Shown here: in pieces, positions 26,032-50,366 of the stretch
How the letters are laid out: each line of letters begins with the position of its first letter
Numbering within the stretch: the first letter of the stretch is position 1
DNA from: a virus
Virus record (IMG/VR): IMGVR_UViG_3300040809_001127
Span: 1-64,000 of that record
Length of the DNA: 64,000 bases
Reading direction: 5' to 3' (one strand)
Notes under the pieces: generated by a model
The model's input: the letters and a program-made list of their open reading frames with translations, nothing else
The model's database searches: none
Told to the model about the DNA's origin: nothing
Position numbers and translations under genes: made by a program

Positions 26032-26505
26032 ATGTTTTTTAAAAAGGAAAAGAATAATATGAATAGAGAAAAAGTATTTGAACAATTAAAAATCGATGAA
26101 GGAGTAGTCTATGAAGTCTATAAAGACCATCTTGGCTATCCTACATTTGGGGTGGGACACCTGGTACTCGAGTCTGATCCAGAATATGGACTTGAAGTTG
26201 GCAGTGTGGTTTCCGAAGAGCGAGTCAAAGAATGTTTCGAACGCGATCTCGATATCGCCATCGAAGAATGTAATCAGCTATACGAGGACGGGAGATTTGG
26301 AGACCTCCCTTCCGAAGTCCAGCAGATATTGGTCAACATGATGTTTAACATGGGTAGGACTAGACTAAGTAAATTTAAAAAGATGCATGCAGCAATCCTT
26401 GAAGGTAACTGGGTTGAAGCAGCAAAAGAGGGAAGAGATTCCCGTTGGTACGATCAAGTAACAAATCGAGCTGAAAGGCTCATGACCCGCCTAGAAAACG
26501 TTTAA
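26032..26505 (+). CDS. Endolysin, T4-type lysozyme (muramidase)
   Basis: Cleaves the beta-1,4 MurNAc-GlcNAc bond of peptidoglycan. The T4 lysozyme triad pattern E-x8-D-x5-T is present as E23, D32, T38 (IDEG ... YKD ... YPTFGVGH). The 157-aa length fits T4 gene e. ATG 26032 has GAGGAATAA upstream; M10 at 26059 is an alternative. There is no signal peptide, so it needs a holin, and candidates follow. Codons are strikingly richer in G/C (CTC, GTC, GAG, TCC) than in the flanking genes, suggesting recent acquisition. Confidence 0.93.
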   Translation: MFFKKEKNNMNREKVFEQLKIDEGVVYEVYKDHLGYPTFGVGHLVLESDPEYGLEVGSVVSEERVKECFERDLDIAIEECNQLYEDGRFGDLPSEVQQILVNMMFNMGRTRLSKFKKMHAAILEGNWVEAAKEGRDSRWYDQVTNRAERLMTRLENV

Positions 26506-26515
26506 TTTCTAAACC

Positions 26516-26556
26516 AAGACTTCTTCTTTTATAAATAACATAATGGAAGAAGTCTT
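26516..26556 (+). repeat. 11-bp inverted repeat enclosing a late promoter and start codon
   Basis: AAGACTTCTTC (26516-26526) and GAAGAAGTCTT (26546-26556) are perfect complements around a 19-nt loop. The loop contains TATAAATA and the ATG of the next gene, and T-rich sequence follows (TTCTCTT). For transcripts from upstream it may be a terminator; for the late transcript starting at 26543 the left arm is absent. Confidence 0.7.
26530..26537 (+). promoter_or_regulatory. T4-type late promoter, leaderless geometry
   Basis: TATAAATA with T4 spacing puts +1 at 26543, the A of the ATG of the next gene. It lies in the loop of the 26516-26556 inverted repeat. It is the nearest visible promoter upstream of the csgF-csgG cluster. 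Confidence 0.65.
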
Positions 26557-26839
26557 TTCTCTTATTAGTGATGTAGGATTACCTATTGCTGGTGCAATGG
26601 TATCTGGCTTCTTTATATTTGTTATCATGAAACAAATACTCGAAGGAGTAATTGACGATATAAAAGTTCTTACTATGTTTAGTGAAGGCCTAGAAAATAG
26701 AGCTAGAACTATGAGTAATGAGTTAACCAAAATTGATTTGTTAGTAAGTTCAGCTTTAGAATTGCGACCAGATATTGAAAGGGTTGCAAGAGCTGAAAAC
26801 TTTATTGAGGATGGAAAACTAGACGTAAGAAGAGACTAA
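26543..26839 (+). CDS. Small membrane protein, holin candidate A (98 aa)
   Basis: One N-terminal transmembrane helix (about 12-32, GLPIAGAMVSGFFIFVIMKQI) and a charged coiled-coil tail. It follows the lysozyme gene, as a holin would. The next gene encodes a protein of the same plan and similar N-terminal wording (LIS-x-x-G-x-P), so the two appear to be paralogues, perhaps a holin/antiholin pair. Only topology and context support this. Confidence 0.6.
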   Translation: MEEVFSLISDVGLPIAGAMVSGFFIFVIMKQILEGVIDDIKVLTMFSEGLENRARTMSNELTKIDLLVSSALELRPDIERVARAENFIEDGKLDVRRD

Positions 26840-26840
26840 T

Positions 26841-27128
26841 ATGGACATAGCAAATTTAATATCCGAATACGGATTTCCAACGGTGATGCTTGTAGGTTTA
26901 GGATATTATGTTTACTTTGTTTATAATTTTATAAAGTCAGAGTTGGAACCGGAAATAGAAAAGCATCACATGCAAGTAATAAAAGTAATAGATCAAATGC
27001 GAATGCTAGATCAAGACTTAATAAGGCTGCAACAAAAAGTAAATGTTGTTTTGGAATACAGAGCTAGGCAAGAATTATTACAGCATTTCGATGAAAAATT
27101 AAGAGATGAAAAGAATGAAAATATTTAA
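26841..27128 (+). CDS. Small membrane protein, holin candidate B (95 aa)
   Basis: Single N-terminal helix (about 11-32, GFPTVMLVGLGYYVYFVYNF) plus coiled coil, the same arrangement and size as the preceding gene. It directly precedes csgF with a 14-base overlap, so it could instead serve the curli-like system. Function inferred only. Confidence 0.6.
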   Translation: MDIANLISEYGFPTVMLVGLGYYVYFVYNFIKSELEPEIEKHHMQVIKVIDQMRMLDQDLIRLQQKVNVVLEYRARQELLQHFDEKLRDEKNENI

Positions 27129-27609
27129 TAAAACTTTACTAGGCACACTTGTTATTGTAATATATTTTACTGCTCAAATCGCATATGCAGATATTGTTCA
27201 TCAATTTAAGAATCCATCATTTAGTGGTGTAGGAACTGGTGCGCATTATCTTACAATAGAAAATCAAGAAAACTCACGTAAAAAAGCAATTGAAGACGCT
27301 CTAGAAGCTGCTCGAAAAGCTGCTGAAAGAGAAGCAGAAAACAGTACATTAGCAAAATTTATTCGTAATTTAGAATCAAGAATTTATGCTCAAATGTCGA
27401 AACAACTCGTTGAATCGATGTTTTCAAATGATAATCCTGTACGCTTTGGTTCATTCGTATTAGAAGGTAATACAGTTACATATGAAGTAATTACTTCAGA
27501 TGATGGAACTGAAATAATAAAAATGACAATAGTATCTTCTGATGGAACAGAAACAATTATAGAAATACCTATAGGAACAGGTAATTATGCTCAAGATGTC
27601 GACGGTTAA
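27115..27609 (+). CDS. csgF: CsgF-like curli assembly protein
   Basis: Start ATG 27115 has GAG nine bases upstream. Signal peptide 1-25 (cleavage after AYA). The mature protein begins near FKNPSFSG (31-38), the counterpart of the FRNPNFGG in E. coli CsgF that inserts into the CsgG pore. A helical middle (FIRNLESRIYAQM) and a beta C-terminus follow. In bacteria CsgF couples curlin secretion to nucleation at the cell surface. It overlaps csgG. It has an Ala/Glu-rich helical insertion (near 50-75) longer than in E. coli. Confidence 0.88.
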   Translation: MKIFNKTLLGTLVIVIYFTAQIAYADIVHQFKNPSFSGVGTGAHYLTIENQENSRKKAIEDALEAARKAAEREAENSTLAKFIRNLESRIYAQMSKQLVESMFSNDNPVRFGSFVLEGNTVTYEVITSDDGTEIIKMTIVSSDGTETIIEIPIGTGNYAQDVDG

Positions 27610-28495
27610 ACTATGTAGTATATTTCTACTTACATTCTTGACTGGATGCGCGGCATTTCCTAAATGGAGTCCTGAACCTGCTGATTGTAGTTATGGAGAA
27701 GGCAGATGGTCTGAAGGATTTAACAAAGATGTAGTCACAGGAGTAGGTCGACAAATTACAAGAAAATATATTTGTGTAGATAAGCCAGAAGTAGTAAAGC
27801 TACCAGCATATATTGAATTATTAGAATTACCTCCCGCAAAAGAAAAACCCGTTGTTGCAGTATATAATTTTGTAGACAAAACTGGCCAAAGAAAAGCAAG
27901 AGATGGAATTGCAGATTTCTCAAATGCTGTTACTCAAGGCGGTACTGAAATGCTAATTGATGCATTAAAAACTGCTGGTAATGGAACTTGGTTCAGAGTA
28001 GTTGAAAGACAAGGCCTTGATAATTTAGTAAGAGAAAGACAAATTATTAGAAGTGCACGACAAGAATTTCCAGGACCTGATGGTCCTCAACCAATAAATC
28101 CCTTACTTTTTGCGGGTATGATAATTGAAGGTGGTATTATTGGTTATGATACTAATATTCAAACTGGAGGAAGAGGCGCACGAACTCTAGGTATTGGATT
28201 TAGTAGACAATATCGTAAAGACGTTGTTACAGTTTCAGTGAGAGCTGTTTCTGTTTTAACGGGTGAAGTATTATTAAACGTCCAAGCACGTAAGACTATA
28301 TTATCTTACGGTTCAGGTGGTGATGTATTCCGATTTATTGAACAGGGTACACAACTAGTAGAGTATGAGGACGGAGTGGGAAATAATGAGTCAGTGACAT
28401 ACGCGGTACGAACAGCAATTGAAGCTGCCGTACTTGAATTAATTAACCAAGGGCACGATAGAGGCTTTTGGGCTATAGGGGAAGAAAATGAATAG
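27587..28495 (+). CDS. csgG: CsgG-like curli secretion pore lipoprotein
   Basis: Lipoprotein signal with lipobox LTGC (C21), then about 60 extra residues before the CsgG core (VVAVYNFVDKTGQ at 89-101 through INQGHDRGFWAI). The core aligns throughout by eye with E. coli CsgG, including VERQGLDNLVRERQIIR, GARTLGIG, KTILSYGSGGDVFRFIE. CsgG forms a nonameric outer-membrane channel for unfolded curlin. In the constriction loop the key Phe is kept (F111), while the adjacent Asn is Asp (D110). The complete length implies a functional pore. Confidence 0.95.
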   Translation: MLKMSTVKLCSIFLLTFLTGCAAFPKWSPEPADCSYGEGRWSEGFNKDVVTGVGRQITRKYICVDKPEVVKLPAYIELLELPPAKEKPVVAVYNFVDKTGQRKARDGIADFSNAVTQGGTEMLIDALKTAGNGTWFRVVERQGLDNLVRERQIIRSARQEFPGPDGPQPINPLLFAGMIIEGGIIGYDTNIQTGGRGARTLGIGFSRQYRKDVVTVSVRAVSVLTGEVLLNVQARKTILSYGSGGDVFRFIEQGTQLVEYEDGVGNNESVTYAVRTAIEAAVLELINQGHDRGFWAIGEENE

Positions 28496-29225
28496 AAAAA
28501 TTTTAAGCTTAGCTATTATGTTGTCGACACCATTCGTTTTCGCACAATCCACTGATGATAACGAAATTAAGATTACTCAAACAGGTGATACTCTTAAACT
28601 ATATGTAGACCAAGTTGGTTTTGGTAACAAAGTAGGTGGTGATGACGCTTCAAGCGGTACATTATCAGCTATGAGTATTACAGGTAGTTCACTTGAGTTT
28701 GATCTTGATTTTACAGGTAATCAAAATATATTCTTTGGACCTGTTGTTGCTGATAGCTCATACTATGAAATGAGTTTTACAGGTGATAATAACCAGGTTG
28801 ATTGGAATATCGGTTACATCGGTAGTGCTGATAGCTCTAACTTTAACTTTGATATTACAGGTGATTTAAATACCTTTGATATCGATCAAGGTTATGTGTT
28901 TAGTGCAGAAAGATTAGATGCGGATTTAATATTGATTGGTAGTTCAAATGTATTTGATATAGACTTTGAAAGTGATGATAATGTTTGGAACTTCGATATT
29001 ACTGGAGATTCAAATAATATCAATACGCTTCAAAATGATGGTTCACAGAATTTAGAATTTACATTGATAGGCGATAGTGCTGATGTAGACATTAATCAAG
29101 TGTCTGGTACTTGTGCAAGTAACAATGTATCTTGTGTATCACCAAATGCAAATATTGTTTTGGATGTAACATCAGATAATGCGATCATTCAGCTTAATCA
29201 AAAAGACTCAGCTAACGATTCTTAG
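28488..29225 (+). CDS. Secreted curlin-like repeat protein 1 (245 aa)
   Basis: Signal peptide of about 19 residues (VFA/Q). The mature chain is almost free of Lys/Arg and consists of short imperfect repeats with Asn/Asp/Gly turns. It begins ITQTGDTLKLYVDQVGFGN, which has the Q-x-G-x-x-N spacing of CsgA/CsgB repeats, then repeated (D/F)ITGD-x-N units. It is a good candidate for a CsgG substrate (amyloid-type subunit). Two cysteines near 210-216 could form a disulfide. Start overlaps the csgG stop; its end overlaps the FecR gene. Confidence 0.75.
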   Translation: MNRKILSLAIMLSTPFVFAQSTDDNEIKITQTGDTLKLYVDQVGFGNKVGGDDASSGTLSAMSITGSSLEFDLDFTGNQNIFFGPVVADSSYYEMSFTGDNNQVDWNIGYIGSADSSNFNFDITGDLNTFDIDQGYVFSAERLDADLILIGSSNVFDIDFESDDNVWNFDITGDSNNINTLQNDGSQNLEFTLIGDSADVDINQVSGTCASNNVSCVSPNANIVLDVTSDNAIIQLNQKDSANDS

Positions 29226-30288
29226 TTTTTTCATTAGTGGGGTTAGTTTCGCGGCTGACCCCATAGGTGATATAAGAGAAGTTAAAGGAGTCACATCAAT
29301 TGTACGGGATAAAGAAGTTATAAAGACTTCTGAAAATCTTGGAGTACAATTGTATGACGAAGCACAGACTGGAAATGGTCGAATGCTTATAGAATTTTTA
29401 GATAAAGCTGAATTATCTCTCAAAGAACATTCACAAGTTTTTATTGACGAAATATATTATGACCCAGACCCTTCATTATCTAAAATGTCAATGAAAATGG
29501 TTATGGGTACAGCAAGATTTGCTTCAGGTTCTCTGGGGCTCGTAAACAAAGCAAACATAGACATATCAACGCCAACAGCAACAATTGCAGTTCGTGGTAC
29601 TGATTTTACTACAACAATCGATGAACTCGGTCGATCGTTAATTATATTATTGCCAGATCAATTTGGTAATCCTTCTGGTGAAATAGAAGTATCTAATGAT
29701 GGTGGTACTATTACTTTAAATGAAGCATACGCAACTACTTTAGTTTCTAGTTTTGATAATCCACCAATGAAACAAGTTGTATTAAACGGCATCACACCAG
29801 CTGTAATTGATAATATGTTTATTGTTAATCCTCCTGAAGAAGTAAAACGTCAAGTAGAGCAAGAATTACAAGATGAAAAAAATGAAGACCAAGGCATATT
29901 AGATATAGACTTTCTAGATTTTACAGAATTAGAAGAAGATGAATTAGAAGAAGATCAATTAGATGATACAACTGAATTAGATATTAATGAATTAGATGTA
30001 GAATTTTTAGTTGATGTATTAGATCAAATAGATTCAGGAGATTTATTTGATACATTAGGTGAGTTTGATTTAAAAGGCGCATCAAGAGGATTAAATAAAG
30101 AATCGCAATACAACGTATTTCTCAGAGATGGAGATTTAGTATTGTATAGAAATATTAATGGTGTAATTGAAGTACAAATAGGTGCTGGTGGAAACTTTAC
30201 ATTATATACTACAACTCCTACATGGGACGGTGTTATAACCGGTAATGATGGAGAAGATATTGAAATAGTTATAAGACAACTAAATTAA
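29179..30288 (+). CDS. Secreted FecR-domain protein (369 aa)
   Basis: Signal peptide of about 25 residues (SFA/A). The FecR domain spans about 35-165: GNGRMLIEF, GTARFASGSL, then ISTPTATIAVRGTDF, the strongest signature. An acidic Glu/Asp/Leu-rich segment (about 230-300) follows, then a beta C-terminal domain. It is not a sigma-factor regulator fused to a membrane helix as in iron uptake; free periplasmic FecR proteins often lie beside CHASE2 cyclases in bacteria. It overlaps the curlin-like gene by 47 bases. Confidence 0.85.
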   Translation: MRSFSLIKKTQLTILSFFISGVSFAADPIGDIREVKGVTSIVRDKEVIKTSENLGVQLYDEAQTGNGRMLIEFLDKAELSLKEHSQVFIDEIYYDPDPSLSKMSMKMVMGTARFASGSLGLVNKANIDISTPTATIAVRGTDFTTTIDELGRSLIILLPDQFGNPSGEIEVSNDGGTITLNEAYATTLVSSFDNPPMKQVVLNGITPAVIDNMFIVNPPEEVKRQVEQELQDEKNEDQGILDIDFLDFTELEEDELEEDQLDDTTELDINELDVEFLVDVLDQIDSGDLFDTLGEFDLKGASRGLNKESQYNVFLRDGDLVLYRNINGVIEVQIGAGGNFTLYTTTPTWDGVITGNDGEDIEIVIRQLN

Positions 30289-30303
30289 TGGGATATATAT
30301 TAT

Positions 30304-30972
30304 ATGAATAAATTTTTTAAATACTGGATACAACCTTGGCATCCTAATAAGTACATTGAAGCAGAAGATAGAGCATGGGAAATGCTTAAAAAATCTCAAG
30401 GTGGTCATATATGGACAGGTAAAGATCTAATAAAAGCATGGGTGTTTGGATTTATATTAGGTTGTATTTTATTTGCTCCTTTAGCATTTGCTGATGATAA
30501 TAGTATTTCAATTGAACAAATAGGTTCTAGTAATCAAGTCTATGTCAGAATTACTCAAGAAGGATTTAATAATATCATCAATACTCAATATGATGGAAGT
30601 GGTATGTACATTGACTTTAATCAGTTTGGTAATGGCAATGAAATGAATGCTTCAATTATAGGCAATAATAATCAAGTCATAGGTCAACAGTTAGGTGGTG
30701 ACACTCATACAATCAACATTAATGGTAATTATAATCTAGCAGGAACTTGGTATGGAACTAGTCAAGATAATGATATTACTATTAATCTTTTAGGAGATAA
30801 TAATTTTGGCGCAATAGAAGCAAGAGGAAGTGGCGGCCACACAGGAACATTAAATTTAGAAAATGGAGCTAGAATTCAAGTATTTGTTGATACATTAGTT
30901 CCAGATACTTTTACTATCACACAATACTGCGCATCTCCTCCTTGTGCTACTTCAACTATAACTAGAGAGTAA
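30304..30972 (+). CDS. Secreted curlin-like repeat protein 2 (222 aa)
   Basis: An unusual N-terminus: about 42 soluble residues rich in Trp/Lys precede a hydrophobic stretch (43-60) ending in an AFA cleavage site (61-63). This may be an extended signal peptide, or an upstream Met may not be the true start. The mature part has clear curlin-type repeats: SIEQIGSSNQ, ITQEGFNN, FNQFGNGN, IIGNNNQVIGQQ. A Cys pair lies near the C-terminus. Likely the second CsgG-dependent subunit, analogous to the CsgA/CsgB pair. Confidence 0.75.
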   Translation: MNKFFKYWIQPWHPNKYIEAEDRAWEMLKKSQGGHIWTGKDLIKAWVFGFILGCILFAPLAFADDNSISIEQIGSSNQVYVRITQEGFNNIINTQYDGSGMYIDFNQFGNGNEMNASIIGNNNQVIGQQLGGDTHTININGNYNLAGTWYGTSQDNDITINLLGDNNFGAIEARGSGGHTGTLNLENGARIQVFVDTLVPDTFTITQYCASPPCATSTITRE

Positions 30973-30973
30973 T

Positions 30974-32809
30974 ATGAAATATCTTACGTCAATATGGGCA
31001 ACCTTTGCACTTATTGCTCTCTTATGTTTCATAAGATTAACAGATGGTTCATATGTGGAACAAATCAGACTAATAGGGTTTGATTCATACATTAAAACTT
31101 TACCTGAACAAAAATCAGAACGAATTGTTCTACTTAATATCAGTGAAGAATCACTAGAAGCTTATGGTCAATTCCCTTGGCCAAGACAATACTATGCTCA
31201 ATTAATATCTGATCTTCGTAATAAAAATGCAGGAATGATAGCATTTACAATTATGTTTCCGGAAGACGATCGATTTGGTGGTGATGAAACATTTGCATCA
31301 TGGATTAAAGACAATGGTATTATATTATCTCAAGATGCTGATGAGTATGGTAGATCGACTAAAGCACCTTATGTTGGTTATGCAACATTTGGTACAGCTG
31401 ATCCTATGGATTGGATATATCGATACAAAGGTTTAGTAACAAATATTGAATCATTAGAATCTAATGCTTGGGGAGTAGGATTAATAAATGGCTCTCCTGA
31501 AGTAGACGGTGTGACACGACGTGTCCCGCTGATGTCACAAATTAATAATGAGGTATATCCATCCCTGTCACTTGAGGTACTGAGGGCAATCAATAGGAAG
31601 AAATCTTATACTATTAAGACAACAGATAATGGAATCGAAAGTGTAGTACTAAGGCCATTTGAAATCAATACTGATTCAGACGGAAGTGTATGGTTACAAT
31701 GGAATACTGTTTTTGAAGAAGTAAGTTATACTGGTGCAAGTTCTATACCAGATTTAGAAGGTAAGACTGTAGTAGTAGGAGTAACAGCAAAGGGATTGGC
31801 TAATCAGATATCTACACCTGATGGATTAAAATATCCACATCAATTGCAAGCAACTGCATTACAAACTTTACTTTCAGATAAGCCAATATCAAGACCGATA
31901 TGGGCTGATGCTGTTGAGATTATGGTTGCTTCTTTTGGTGCTCTTCTGATTGCTCTATCGATTTATTATTTACCGATCTATGCAGGAATTGCAGTCTTCG
32001 TCGCCGCTGCAGCTGGATCTGCTTACGCTTCATGGTACGCCTGGTACGAATTTCAGATACTCCTCGACTTATCAGCTACTCTAATATTATATATACTTTC
32101 ACTCACCTCAGCGAGTTTCAATAATTTCTATATACAATTTAAATTACGACAACAAATTAAGAAACAGTTTGAGACATATCTCGATCCAAGACAAGTATAC
32201 CTATTACAAAAGAATCCTGAATTACTGAGACTTGGTGGTGAAAGAAAAGATATGTCATTTATGTTTATGGATATCGTAGGCTTTACTCCTATATCAGAAC
32301 ACTATAAGAATAATGATGACCCAGAAGGCTTAGTGAAACTTATAAATAATTATTTAGATACCATGTCAAAAATTATTTTGAAAAATGGTGGAACAATCGA
32401 CAAGTATATGGGTGATTGTATTATGGCGTTTTGGAATGCGCCATTAGAATGTCCTAATCATGCAGATGCAGCAGTTAATACTGCGGTCGAGATACTAGAA
32501 GCAGCTGATGAGCTTATACAAGAACTTGAAGATCAAGGTTTACCTAGGATTGATATTGGCATTGGTATCAACACCGGTGCATGCATTGTCGGAAATATGG
32601 GATCAGAATCTCGATTTGACTATTCCGTCATTGGAGACGCCGTCAACCTTGGCGCTCGACTCGAAGGCCAAACTCGCAATTATGATGGGGTACGAGTGCT
32701 GTTATCACAGTTCACTGCGGGAGCAAGTTCAGAGAGAAGCTACAGAAAAGTCGATAGCATTAAAGTTAAAGGAAAGACAGAACTTATCGACATTTACACT
32801 GTCGACTGA
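30974..32809 (+). CDS. CHASE2-domain class III adenylate cyclase
   Basis: N-terminal membrane helix (about 7-22), periplasmic CHASE2 sensor domain (about 30-305), three membrane helices (about 311-331, 333-350, 363-382) and a cytoplasmic class III cyclase (about 420-605). Catalytic residues are complete: metal ligands D433 (FMDIVGF) and D481 (KYMGD), purine-contacting K477 and transition-state N558/R562 (GDAVNLGARLE). K477 favours ATP, hence cAMP. It would convert a periplasmic signal into a cytoplasmic cyclic nucleotide. GC-rich codon patches near 31990-32070 and 32560-32720 differ from neighbours. Confidence 0.93.
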   Translation: MKYLTSIWATFALIALLCFIRLTDGSYVEQIRLIGFDSYIKTLPEQKSERIVLLNISEESLEAYGQFPWPRQYYAQLISDLRNKNAGMIAFTIMFPEDDRFGGDETFASWIKDNGIILSQDADEYGRSTKAPYVGYATFGTADPMDWIYRYKGLVTNIESLESNAWGVGLINGSPEVDGVTRRVPLMSQINNEVYPSLSLEVLRAINRKKSYTIKTTDNGIESVVLRPFEINTDSDGSVWLQWNTVFEEVSYTGASSIPDLEGKTVVVGVTAKGLANQISTPDGLKYPHQLQATALQTLLSDKPISRPIWADAVEIMVASFGALLIALSIYYLPIYAGIAVFVAAAAGSAYASWYAWYEFQILLDLSATLILYILSLTSASFNNFYIQFKLRQQIKKQFETYLDPRQVYLLQKNPELLRLGGERKDMSFMFMDIVGFTPISEHYKNNDDPEGLVKLINNYLDTMSKIILKNGGTIDKYMGDCIMAFWNAPLECPNHADAAVNTAVEILEAADELIQELEDQGLPRIDIGIGINTGACIVGNMGSESRFDYSVIGDAVNLGARLEGQTRNYDGVRVLLSQFTAGASSERSYRKVDSIKVKGKTELIDIYTVD

Positions 32810-33113
32810 GAAAAAACTACATCCTACAATATGGTATACCTTTTGGGTCCTACAAGCAGCAGATGTATGGACAACAAAAGAAGGCATTAAGTATGATTGT
32901 GTATATGAAGCAAATCCATTACTTCCTAAAGTTCCTCACGTTGATAGATTACTCATACATAAGACACTATTTCTACATCCATTTGCTATCTTAAAAAACG
33001 AAGATACGTTAGATAATACACAAATGATTTTTCCTATATTATTGACAGCTTGGGTGGTAAATAATAACCTTAAAGTAATTGATAGAGCTGAAAGTCGCTG
33101 TAACCTCAGATAA
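32508..33113 (+). CDS. Membrane protein with a 5' end that may overprint the cyclase gene
   Basis: The frame runs on for 101 codons past the cyclase stop as a hydrophobic, DUF5658-like protein (LQAADVWTT, YEANPLLPKVPHVDRLL, IFPILLTAWVV). No ATG, GTG or TTG lies at the start of that part. The first in-frame Met residues are at 32682/32685 and 32508, inside the cyclase gene. From 32508 the product would begin with a classic signal peptide (KNLKIKVYLGLILALVSTPVHA, here shortened to KVYLGLILALVS). The real start is uncertain; the 3' half is likely coding. Confidence 0.5.
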   Translation: MSLYKNLKIKVYLGLILALVSTPVHALSEIWDQNLDLTIPSLETPSTLALDSKAKLAIMMGYECCYHSSLREQVQREATEKSIALKLKERQNLSTFTLSTEKKLHPTIWYTFWVLQAADVWTTKEGIKYDCVYEANPLLPKVPHVDRLLIHKTLFLHPFAILKNEDTLDNTQMIFPILLTAWVVNNNLKVIDRAESRCNLR

Positions 33114-33114
33114 G

Positions 33115-33189
33115 AACAACACTTTTTCACAAGTTTTTTCACTTTTTTTTAAAAAAACCGTTTACAAAGACTCCAAACTGTGGTATAAT
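33115..33189 (+). promoter_or_regulatory. Early promoter with duplicated T/CAC-rich cassette
   Basis: TTTACA (33161-33166) and TATAAT (33184-33189) with 17-bp spacing. The preceding 46 bases nearly repeat those at 1037-1082. Seven bases after the -10 box comes the ATG of the HAD gene (33196), so a leaderless mRNA is predicted. It marks the boundary between the curli/cyclase cluster and an early block. Confidence 0.8.
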
Positions 33190-50358: not shown

Positions 50359-50366
50359 TATAAATA
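50359..50366 (+). promoter_or_regulatory. T4-type late promoter of gene 25, leaderless geometry
   Basis: TATAAATA with T4 spacing puts +1 at 50372, the A of the gene 25 ATG. The only AGGA upstream lies ahead of the octamer and would be outside the message. Confidence 0.7.

Follow-up and report, generated by a model that had tools for sequence, protein, structure and literature searches.

The stretch of DNA analysed here, termed the window, comprises the first 64,000 nucleotides of a 69,976-base virus record (IMG/VR IMGVR_UViG_3300040809_001127) from a T4-like phage. Between positions 26841 and 33113 of its + strand, the genes for CsgF, CsgG, two curlin-repeat proteins, a FecR-domain protein and a CHASE2 class III cyclase lie adjacent to each other. 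Pfam matches for CsgF, CsgG, curlin, FecR and CHASE2/cyclase agree with the names that an initial annotation, made from the sequence alone, had given to these genes. That annotation placed the correct genes in the unit but began it one gene too late. The true start is at 26543, where two tandem phrog_18771 genes for small one-helix proteins (h1 and h2) are located, and the first of them had been missed. The marine T4-like phage has a complete curli-type (amyloid fibre) export operon, except for CsgE and CsgC, and the late-promoter motif ahead of the operon predicts expression late in infection. The operon contains the following features.

26530..26537, + strand: T4-type late promoter consensus TATAAATA, 13 nt ahead of the first gene, h1
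26543..26839, + strand: h1, the first gene, 98 aa (phrog_18771, 1.9e-22), with a transmembrane-like segment at residues 7-33 and a cytoplasmic coiled-coil-like tail; labelled 'HK' in PMC9599517
26841..27128, + strand: h2, a 95-aa paralogue of h1 (phrog_18771, 3.4e-23)
27106..27609, + strand: CsgF (PF10614, 6.6e-14), with a signal peptide and an N-terminal IVHxFxxPSFS segment of CsgG-docking type that is conserved in the alignment
27587..28495, + strand: CsgG, outer-membrane lipoprotein pore (PF03783, 2.9e-54), with lipobox LTGC
28488..29225, + strand: curlin-like protein 1 (PF07012, 7.7e-5, above the cut-off), exported and acidic, with strand-turn-strand repeats
29179..30288, + strand: exported FecR-domain protein (PF04773, 2e-8), with a 47-nt overlap with curlin 1
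30304..30972, + strand: curlin-like protein 2 (PF07012, 8.1e-4, 1 bit below the cut-off)
30974..32809, + strand: CHASE2 class III adenylate cyclase (PF05226, 1.9e-40; PF00211, guanylate_cyc, 4.1e-19), with homology to solved bacterial cyclases
32508..33113, + strand: memX, a 201-aa exported or membrane protein with a signal-peptide-like N-terminus, an invariant CC and a C-terminal DUF5658-like helical domain
32508..32809, + strand: dual-coding stretch, formed by the cyclase 3' end and the first half of memX in the +1 frame, within the cyclase catalytic domain

The module contains a CsgG homologue, a CsgF homologue and curlin-repeat subunits with signal peptides, as in curli, or type VIII secretion systems (T8SS). 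Profile searches identify CsgF, CsgG and curlin 1, with curlin 2 just under the cut-off, and residues 71-298 of CsgG match Escherichia coli CsgG structures at 2.8e-49. Together with the conserved docking-type segment of CsgF, the latter match bears out the earlier view that both core motifs are intact. Between its lipobox and this core (approximately residues 18-70), CsgG contains an additional segment of ~50 aa with two cysteines, and the CsgG matches of phages HTVC008M and Melnitz start only beyond it. The two curlin-like proteins have signal-peptide-like N-termini in their translations. Their repeats had initially been described as Q-x-G-x-x-N. Curlin-like repeats are indeed present, but the canonical form is rare, with one copy in curlin 1 and three in curlin 2 as counted by eye, and the remaining repeats are mostly degenerate. 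CsgE and CsgC, already noted as missing, have no match at E<=0.1 in the window record and 8 related records. Both are also reported to be absent from alphaproteobacterial modules in PMC9599517, and we therefore regard their absence as a variant feature rather than a disqualifier.

How constant is the arrangement of the module? We retrieved 80 viral loci through CsgG and further loci through the cyclase, and the order counts take only viral loci with enough contig on the relevant side. Because module genes served as the entry point and near-duplicates are included, the counts describe the cohesion of the set, not prevalence among phages. Both h1 and csgF precede csgG (101/101 loci each), and curlin 1 (93/93), FecR (93/93) and the cyclase (58/58) follow it, which makes FecR and the cyclase constant members, in support of the initial interpretation. 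A curlin-like open reading frame (ORF) separates FecR from the cyclase in 86 of 95 loci. Given this near-constant order, the gene arrangement is not due to chance; the module travels whole, and its genes are found together in related viral loci rather than scattered. Neighboring genes overlap at the csgG-curlin 1 junction in 94/104 loci and at the curlin 1-FecR junction in 100/101. Such overlapping junctions and the late-promoter motif before h1 are consistent with the single expressed unit that the initial annotation had envisaged. The curlin 1/FecR overlap is exactly 47 nt long in 68 of 101 loci (28488-29225 versus 29179-30288 in the window), and this conserved overlap is a second short dual-coding stretch. 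In approximately 10 loci (L003, L006, L009 and others), an insertion of ~770 nt, probably an additional gene, is located between h2 and csgF.

The position of the late-promoter motif provides a clue to the timing of expression. Of 70 non-redundant loci, 43 have exact TATAAATA in the 60 nt ahead of h1, and 47 have the 7-mer TATAAAT there, compared with 1.4 expected. Upstream of any other module gene, the motif occurs in 0-3 loci each. TATAAATA is not enriched across the whole window (17 observed versus 13.7 expected), and thus the informative signal lies solely in its recurrence ahead of h1 from locus to locus. Because the motif is rare ahead of the other module genes, the module is most likely a late unit, as judged from sequence. 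The motif usually begins 13 nt ahead of the h1 ATG, and by inference from T4 late promoters, late transcription is predicted to start on the start codon itself. The same 13-nt spacing between motif and ATG is also observed at 50359 (+) and 44630 (-); late mRNAs of such phages would be leaderless.

The h1 and h2 proteins were labelled as histidine kinases in PMC9599517. We find no support for this label, given that the two proteins are 95-98 aa long, have one hydrophobic helix and are devoid of HisKA and HATPase domains. Moreover, no kinase family is matched at E<=1 among 33 h1/h2 proteins. The sole functional lead is a weak match to the holin family phrog_4898 in 10 of the 33 proteins (best 1.1e-4).

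The FecR protein consists of a signal peptide and a FecR domain, without a transmembrane-like segment, an anti-sigma part or any other convincing Pfam domain. A FecIR-type sigma regulator is unsupported, since the protein has neither an inner-membrane helix nor a cytoplasmic anti-sigma part and the module contains no sigma-factor gene as a partner. The catalytic apparatus of class III cyclases comprises two metal-binding Asp residues, a substrate-binding Lys and Asp/Thr, and a transition-state Asn and Arg. In the phage cyclase, D433, K477, D481 and R562 are invariant, and D549 and N558 are conserved at >90% among 22 aligned sequences, and the catalytic site is intact. No cyclic nucleotide monophosphate-binding protein is encoded in the window record and 8 related records, and any receptor for cyclic AMP (cAMP) must therefore be that of the host.

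The FecR-CHASE2 pairing is not phage-specific, because it also occurs on Caulobacteraceae chromosomes and upstream of other bacterial CHASE2 cyclases, where FecR is the commonest named family encoded directly upstream (10 of 50 scanned). In two Caulobacteraceae genomes (L178 and L297), csgF, csgG, two curlin genes, FecR and a CHASE2 cyclase form one run on bacterial contigs. These clusters differ from the phage module in that they have no h1, h2 or memX and both curlin genes stand ahead of FecR. In the other alphaproteobacterial csgF regions that we examined, neither FecR nor the cyclase is seen. A bacterial origin of the pairing is likely. Caulobacteraceae group with phages in the CsgG tree, and the direction of transfer is not settled. 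A small membrane-like ORF follows the Caulobacteraceae cyclase (L178:12491-13081) and by eye resembles membrane effectors of cyclic-nucleotide defence systems.

The last gene of the module, memX, had been listed as an extra membrane protein. The gene is real, but its ~300-nt dual coding with the cyclase had been missed. In all 37 memX-bearing viral loci, made non-redundant at <95% identity over the final 600 nt of the cyclase, the +1 frame is open across the overlap and into the DUF5658-like domain; it is open from the window's own anchor in 34 of them, and in the remaining three it begins a few codons further on. In contrast, the +1 frame is open in 0/62 cyclase loci without the memX domain (mean 7.6 stops), and synonymous shuffling of the cyclase never yields an open +1 frame in 2000 trials per locus. 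Cyclase synonymous variation in memX loci has a median of 0.64 in the overlap versus 0.96 upstream (p=1.7e-10), with no such drop in memX-negative loci (0.97 versus 0.93). Synonymous differences decrease from ~0.9-1.0 of expectation to 0.43-0.87 from approximately -333 to the cyclase stop, and only in memX-bearing loci. In a +1 overlap, third codon positions of the cyclase coincide with second positions of memX, and selection on memX would thus be expected to cause this decrease. The open frame and the synonymous constraint also reject the explanation that the memX start at 32508, with its 302-nt cyclase overlap, is a mechanical artefact. Thus, memX is well supported by sequence as a dual-coding gene whose second frame is open and constrained beyond the demands of the cyclase. 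Its C-terminal region matches DUF5658 (E<=0.1) in 19 of 20 members, with a best value of 1.5e-6, and the predicted memX model reaches pLDDT >90 over most of residues 105-201. Foldseek finds no PDB match for this model; one uncharacterised viral protein matches it (E=1.8e-6).

Where does translation of memX begin? The window has no ATG, GTG or TTG in the memX frame from -124 to +120 relative to the cyclase stop, and the start must therefore be inside the cyclase gene. A conserved ATG at approximately -290 to -335 is followed in nearly all loci by a basic, hydrophobic and small-x-small stretch. The signal-peptide hydrophobicity of the memX frame is also reached by cyclase shuffles (median P 0.075) and partly follows from the cyclase sequence; the signal peptide alone is thus weak evidence, and it is the open frame together with the synonymous test that carries the case for memX. 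It is improbable that memX lacks a start of its own, whether because ribosomes shift into its frame from the cyclase or because the constraint reflects an RNA element. Such an explanation would account for the occurrence of a Shine-Dalgarno-like sequence before memX in just 16/35 loci, for which reason the exact start is not proven, and it would draw on the cyclase-derived part of the hydrophobicity. However, the frame is already open ~300 nt before the cyclase stop, the constraint sets in close to the conserved ATG, and beyond the cyclase stop the same frame runs on into a conserved DUF5658-like domain. The interval without start codons from -124 to +120 in the window speaks against this alternative as well, and an RNA element would give no reason for a single frame to lack stops in 37/37 loci. 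The presence of memX changes at least 5 times on the cyclase tree. In several memX-negative loci (L026, L040, L065 and L090-L093), the first +1 stop is only ~160-50 nt before the cyclase stop, and these loci are possibly remnants of a lost memX. No match to memX is found among cultured phage records and no literature was found on the cyclase/memX overlap in the passages searched; memX apparently has been unreported until now. As a tentative and rather doubtful assignment, memX may be a membrane partner of the phage cyclase, inherited and made together with it as the sensor-effector pair of the late curli module.

The csgF and csgG genes were reported in pelagimyophages (Zaragoza-Solas et al. 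2020, PMC7029224), and the order HK-CsgF-CsgG-CsgA/B-FecR-CsgA/B-AC, with one or two 'histidine kinases' first, was reported in podo- and myo-pelagiphages (Wittmers et al. 2022, PMC9599517). The window module has a gene order identical to that of this pelagiphage module, represented by HTVC008M, which likewise has neither CsgE nor CsgC. The memX overlap is absent from HTVC008M and is not found in the searched passages of PMC9599517, a paper that says nothing of a late promoter (0 occurrences of the word 'promoter'). Our analysis does not support the names 'HK' and 'FecR regulator' given in the pelagiphage module. The Melnitz record (MZ577097) annotates h1, h2, csgF, csgG, a curlin repeat, FecR, a curlin repeat and the cyclase in identical order; it has no memX, and its identity to the window phage is 37% for the cyclase and 46% for CsgG. 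PMC9004378 states that csgA and csgB are missing in Melnitz, whereas the record itself annotates curlin-repeat proteins. The E. coli curli system (csgBAC and csgDEFG) has the CsgG and CsgF cores and the curlin repeats in common with the phage module, which differs in the lack of CsgE, CsgC and CsgD, the addition of FecR and the cyclase, and the degenerate repeats. Since the order is published and present in the Melnitz record, the module is not new, and the initial suggestion of a new system largely fails, also because the FecR/cyclase coupling exists in Caulobacteraceae chromosomes. The curli module itself is an already known system; the memX component and the late-timing clue are new.

Outside the module, its directly upstream neighbour is a lysozyme gene.

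26032..26505, + strand: T4-type phage lysozyme/endolysin (PF00959, 6.5e-10)

Lysozyme is found within 16 of 25 long-flank loci at positions that range from ~3 kb ahead of csgG to 10 kb beyond it, and we rejected it as a fixed module member because of this shift. Right after memX, a near-consensus sigma-70-type promoter (11/12) at 33161-33189 precedes a polynucleotide-kinase-like gene and likely marks a new early unit. The T4-like assignment of the phage rests on an encoded baseplate wedge protein, tail lysozyme, ribonucleotide reductase and gp32. The baseplate wedge protein has its nearest counterparts in Pelagibacter phages HTVC008M and Mosig and in Methylophilales phage Melnitz (~40% identity), and gp32 is nearest to those of an unassigned phage and cyanophages (56%). 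The two proteins point to different nearest phages, and the host is therefore not shown.

We propose, with a probability of approximately 0.6, that the module is a late operon that exports curli-type fibre subunits for display on the surface of the infected cell. Gene content, gene order, catalytic residues, the promoter motif and dual coding are read from sequence; late expression, fibre formation, FecR-CHASE2 contact, cAMP output and a benefit to the phage are steps that we infer. From the late promoter, the infected cell would make the two small inner-membrane proteins h1 and h2, CsgG as the outer-membrane pore and CsgF as a docking and nucleation factor. The two curlin-like subunits would be exported by Sec and then leave through CsgG-CsgF, resulting in a fibrous coat late in infection. 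The exported FecR protein and the inner-membrane CHASE2 cyclase, both facing the periplasm, would constitute a sensing pair that sets cytoplasmic cAMP, and cAMP would act through a host receptor. MemX would be translated from a start codon within the cyclase gene, here and in many relatives. The benefit may be to keep progeny or neighboring cells close at release, to which we give slightly less than an even chance. The proposal draws on the cohesion of the set in viral loci, the overlapping junctions, the motif placed ahead of h1, the CsgG and CsgF cores, the curlin repeats with their all-beta model, the intact active site of the cyclase, the bacterial FecR-CHASE2 pairings and the dual coding of memX. 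Several observations weigh against it. CsgE is absent from the 9 records searched, curlin 2 is 1 bit short of the Pfam cut-off, and the memX start often has no Shine-Dalgarno-like sequence. The predicted curlin 1 model is all-beta with moderate confidence (pLDDT 74, pTM 0.72) and has no significant PDB match in Foldseek, so that an amyloid or solenoid structure is not established. In addition, no clumping was seen in culture by the Melnitz authors (PMC9004378).

The roles that the initial annotation put forward (superinfection exclusion, clumping, a pore at lysis and capture) are indistinguishable by sequence, and three other explanations have to be weighed. The module could be a device for lysis or envelope permeabilisation, in which holin-like one-helix proteins act, CsgG-CsgF opens the outer membrane, lysozyme cuts the wall and the fibre proteins are plugs or passengers. 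The late-promoter motif before h1, the weak holin matches, the lysozyme gene that adjoins the module in the window and recurs in the flanks of other loci, and the proposal of a lysis function for Melnitz CsgGF (PMC9004378) all favor this explanation. Nevertheless, lysozyme shifts position, while curlin 1 and FecR never leave the module, and in cultured phages h1 and h2 are found beside csg genes only. Mean column identity is 72% for curlin 1 (35 loci), above the 61% of FecR and the 54% of the cyclase, which come from different samples, and such conservation would be odd for a passenger. We consider the lysis device unlikely, and to the same degree a surface coat that chiefly blocks superinfection by competing phages while the cyclase adjusts host physiology. 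Superinfection blocking was proposed in PMC9599517 and would draw on secretion and coat parts that are complete save CsgE and CsgC. However, exclusion is usually early, which fits badly with a T4-type late promoter, and the module is without a receptor-modifying enzyme. Far less probable is an incomplete curli remnant retained as an uptake pore without fibres. The absence of CsgE and CsgC from the 9 records would suit a remnant, as would the report of SAR11 and OM43 hosts without curli (PMC9599517 and PMC9004378), but 93/93 assessable loci carry uninterrupted curlin-like genes of high conservation.

Ocean phages hold curli machinery that is reportedly missing in their hosts. Once the names 'histidine kinase' and 'FecR regulator' are dropped, the module is freed of an iron-regulation story that had no support. 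MemX adds a component apparently overlooked by earlier annotations. Its ~300-nt overlap in the cyclase catalytic domain persists even where cyclases differ at approximately half of their residues and is unusually long for conserved dual coding. The late-promoter motif links the module to the end of infection and would thereby make the rival roles testable.

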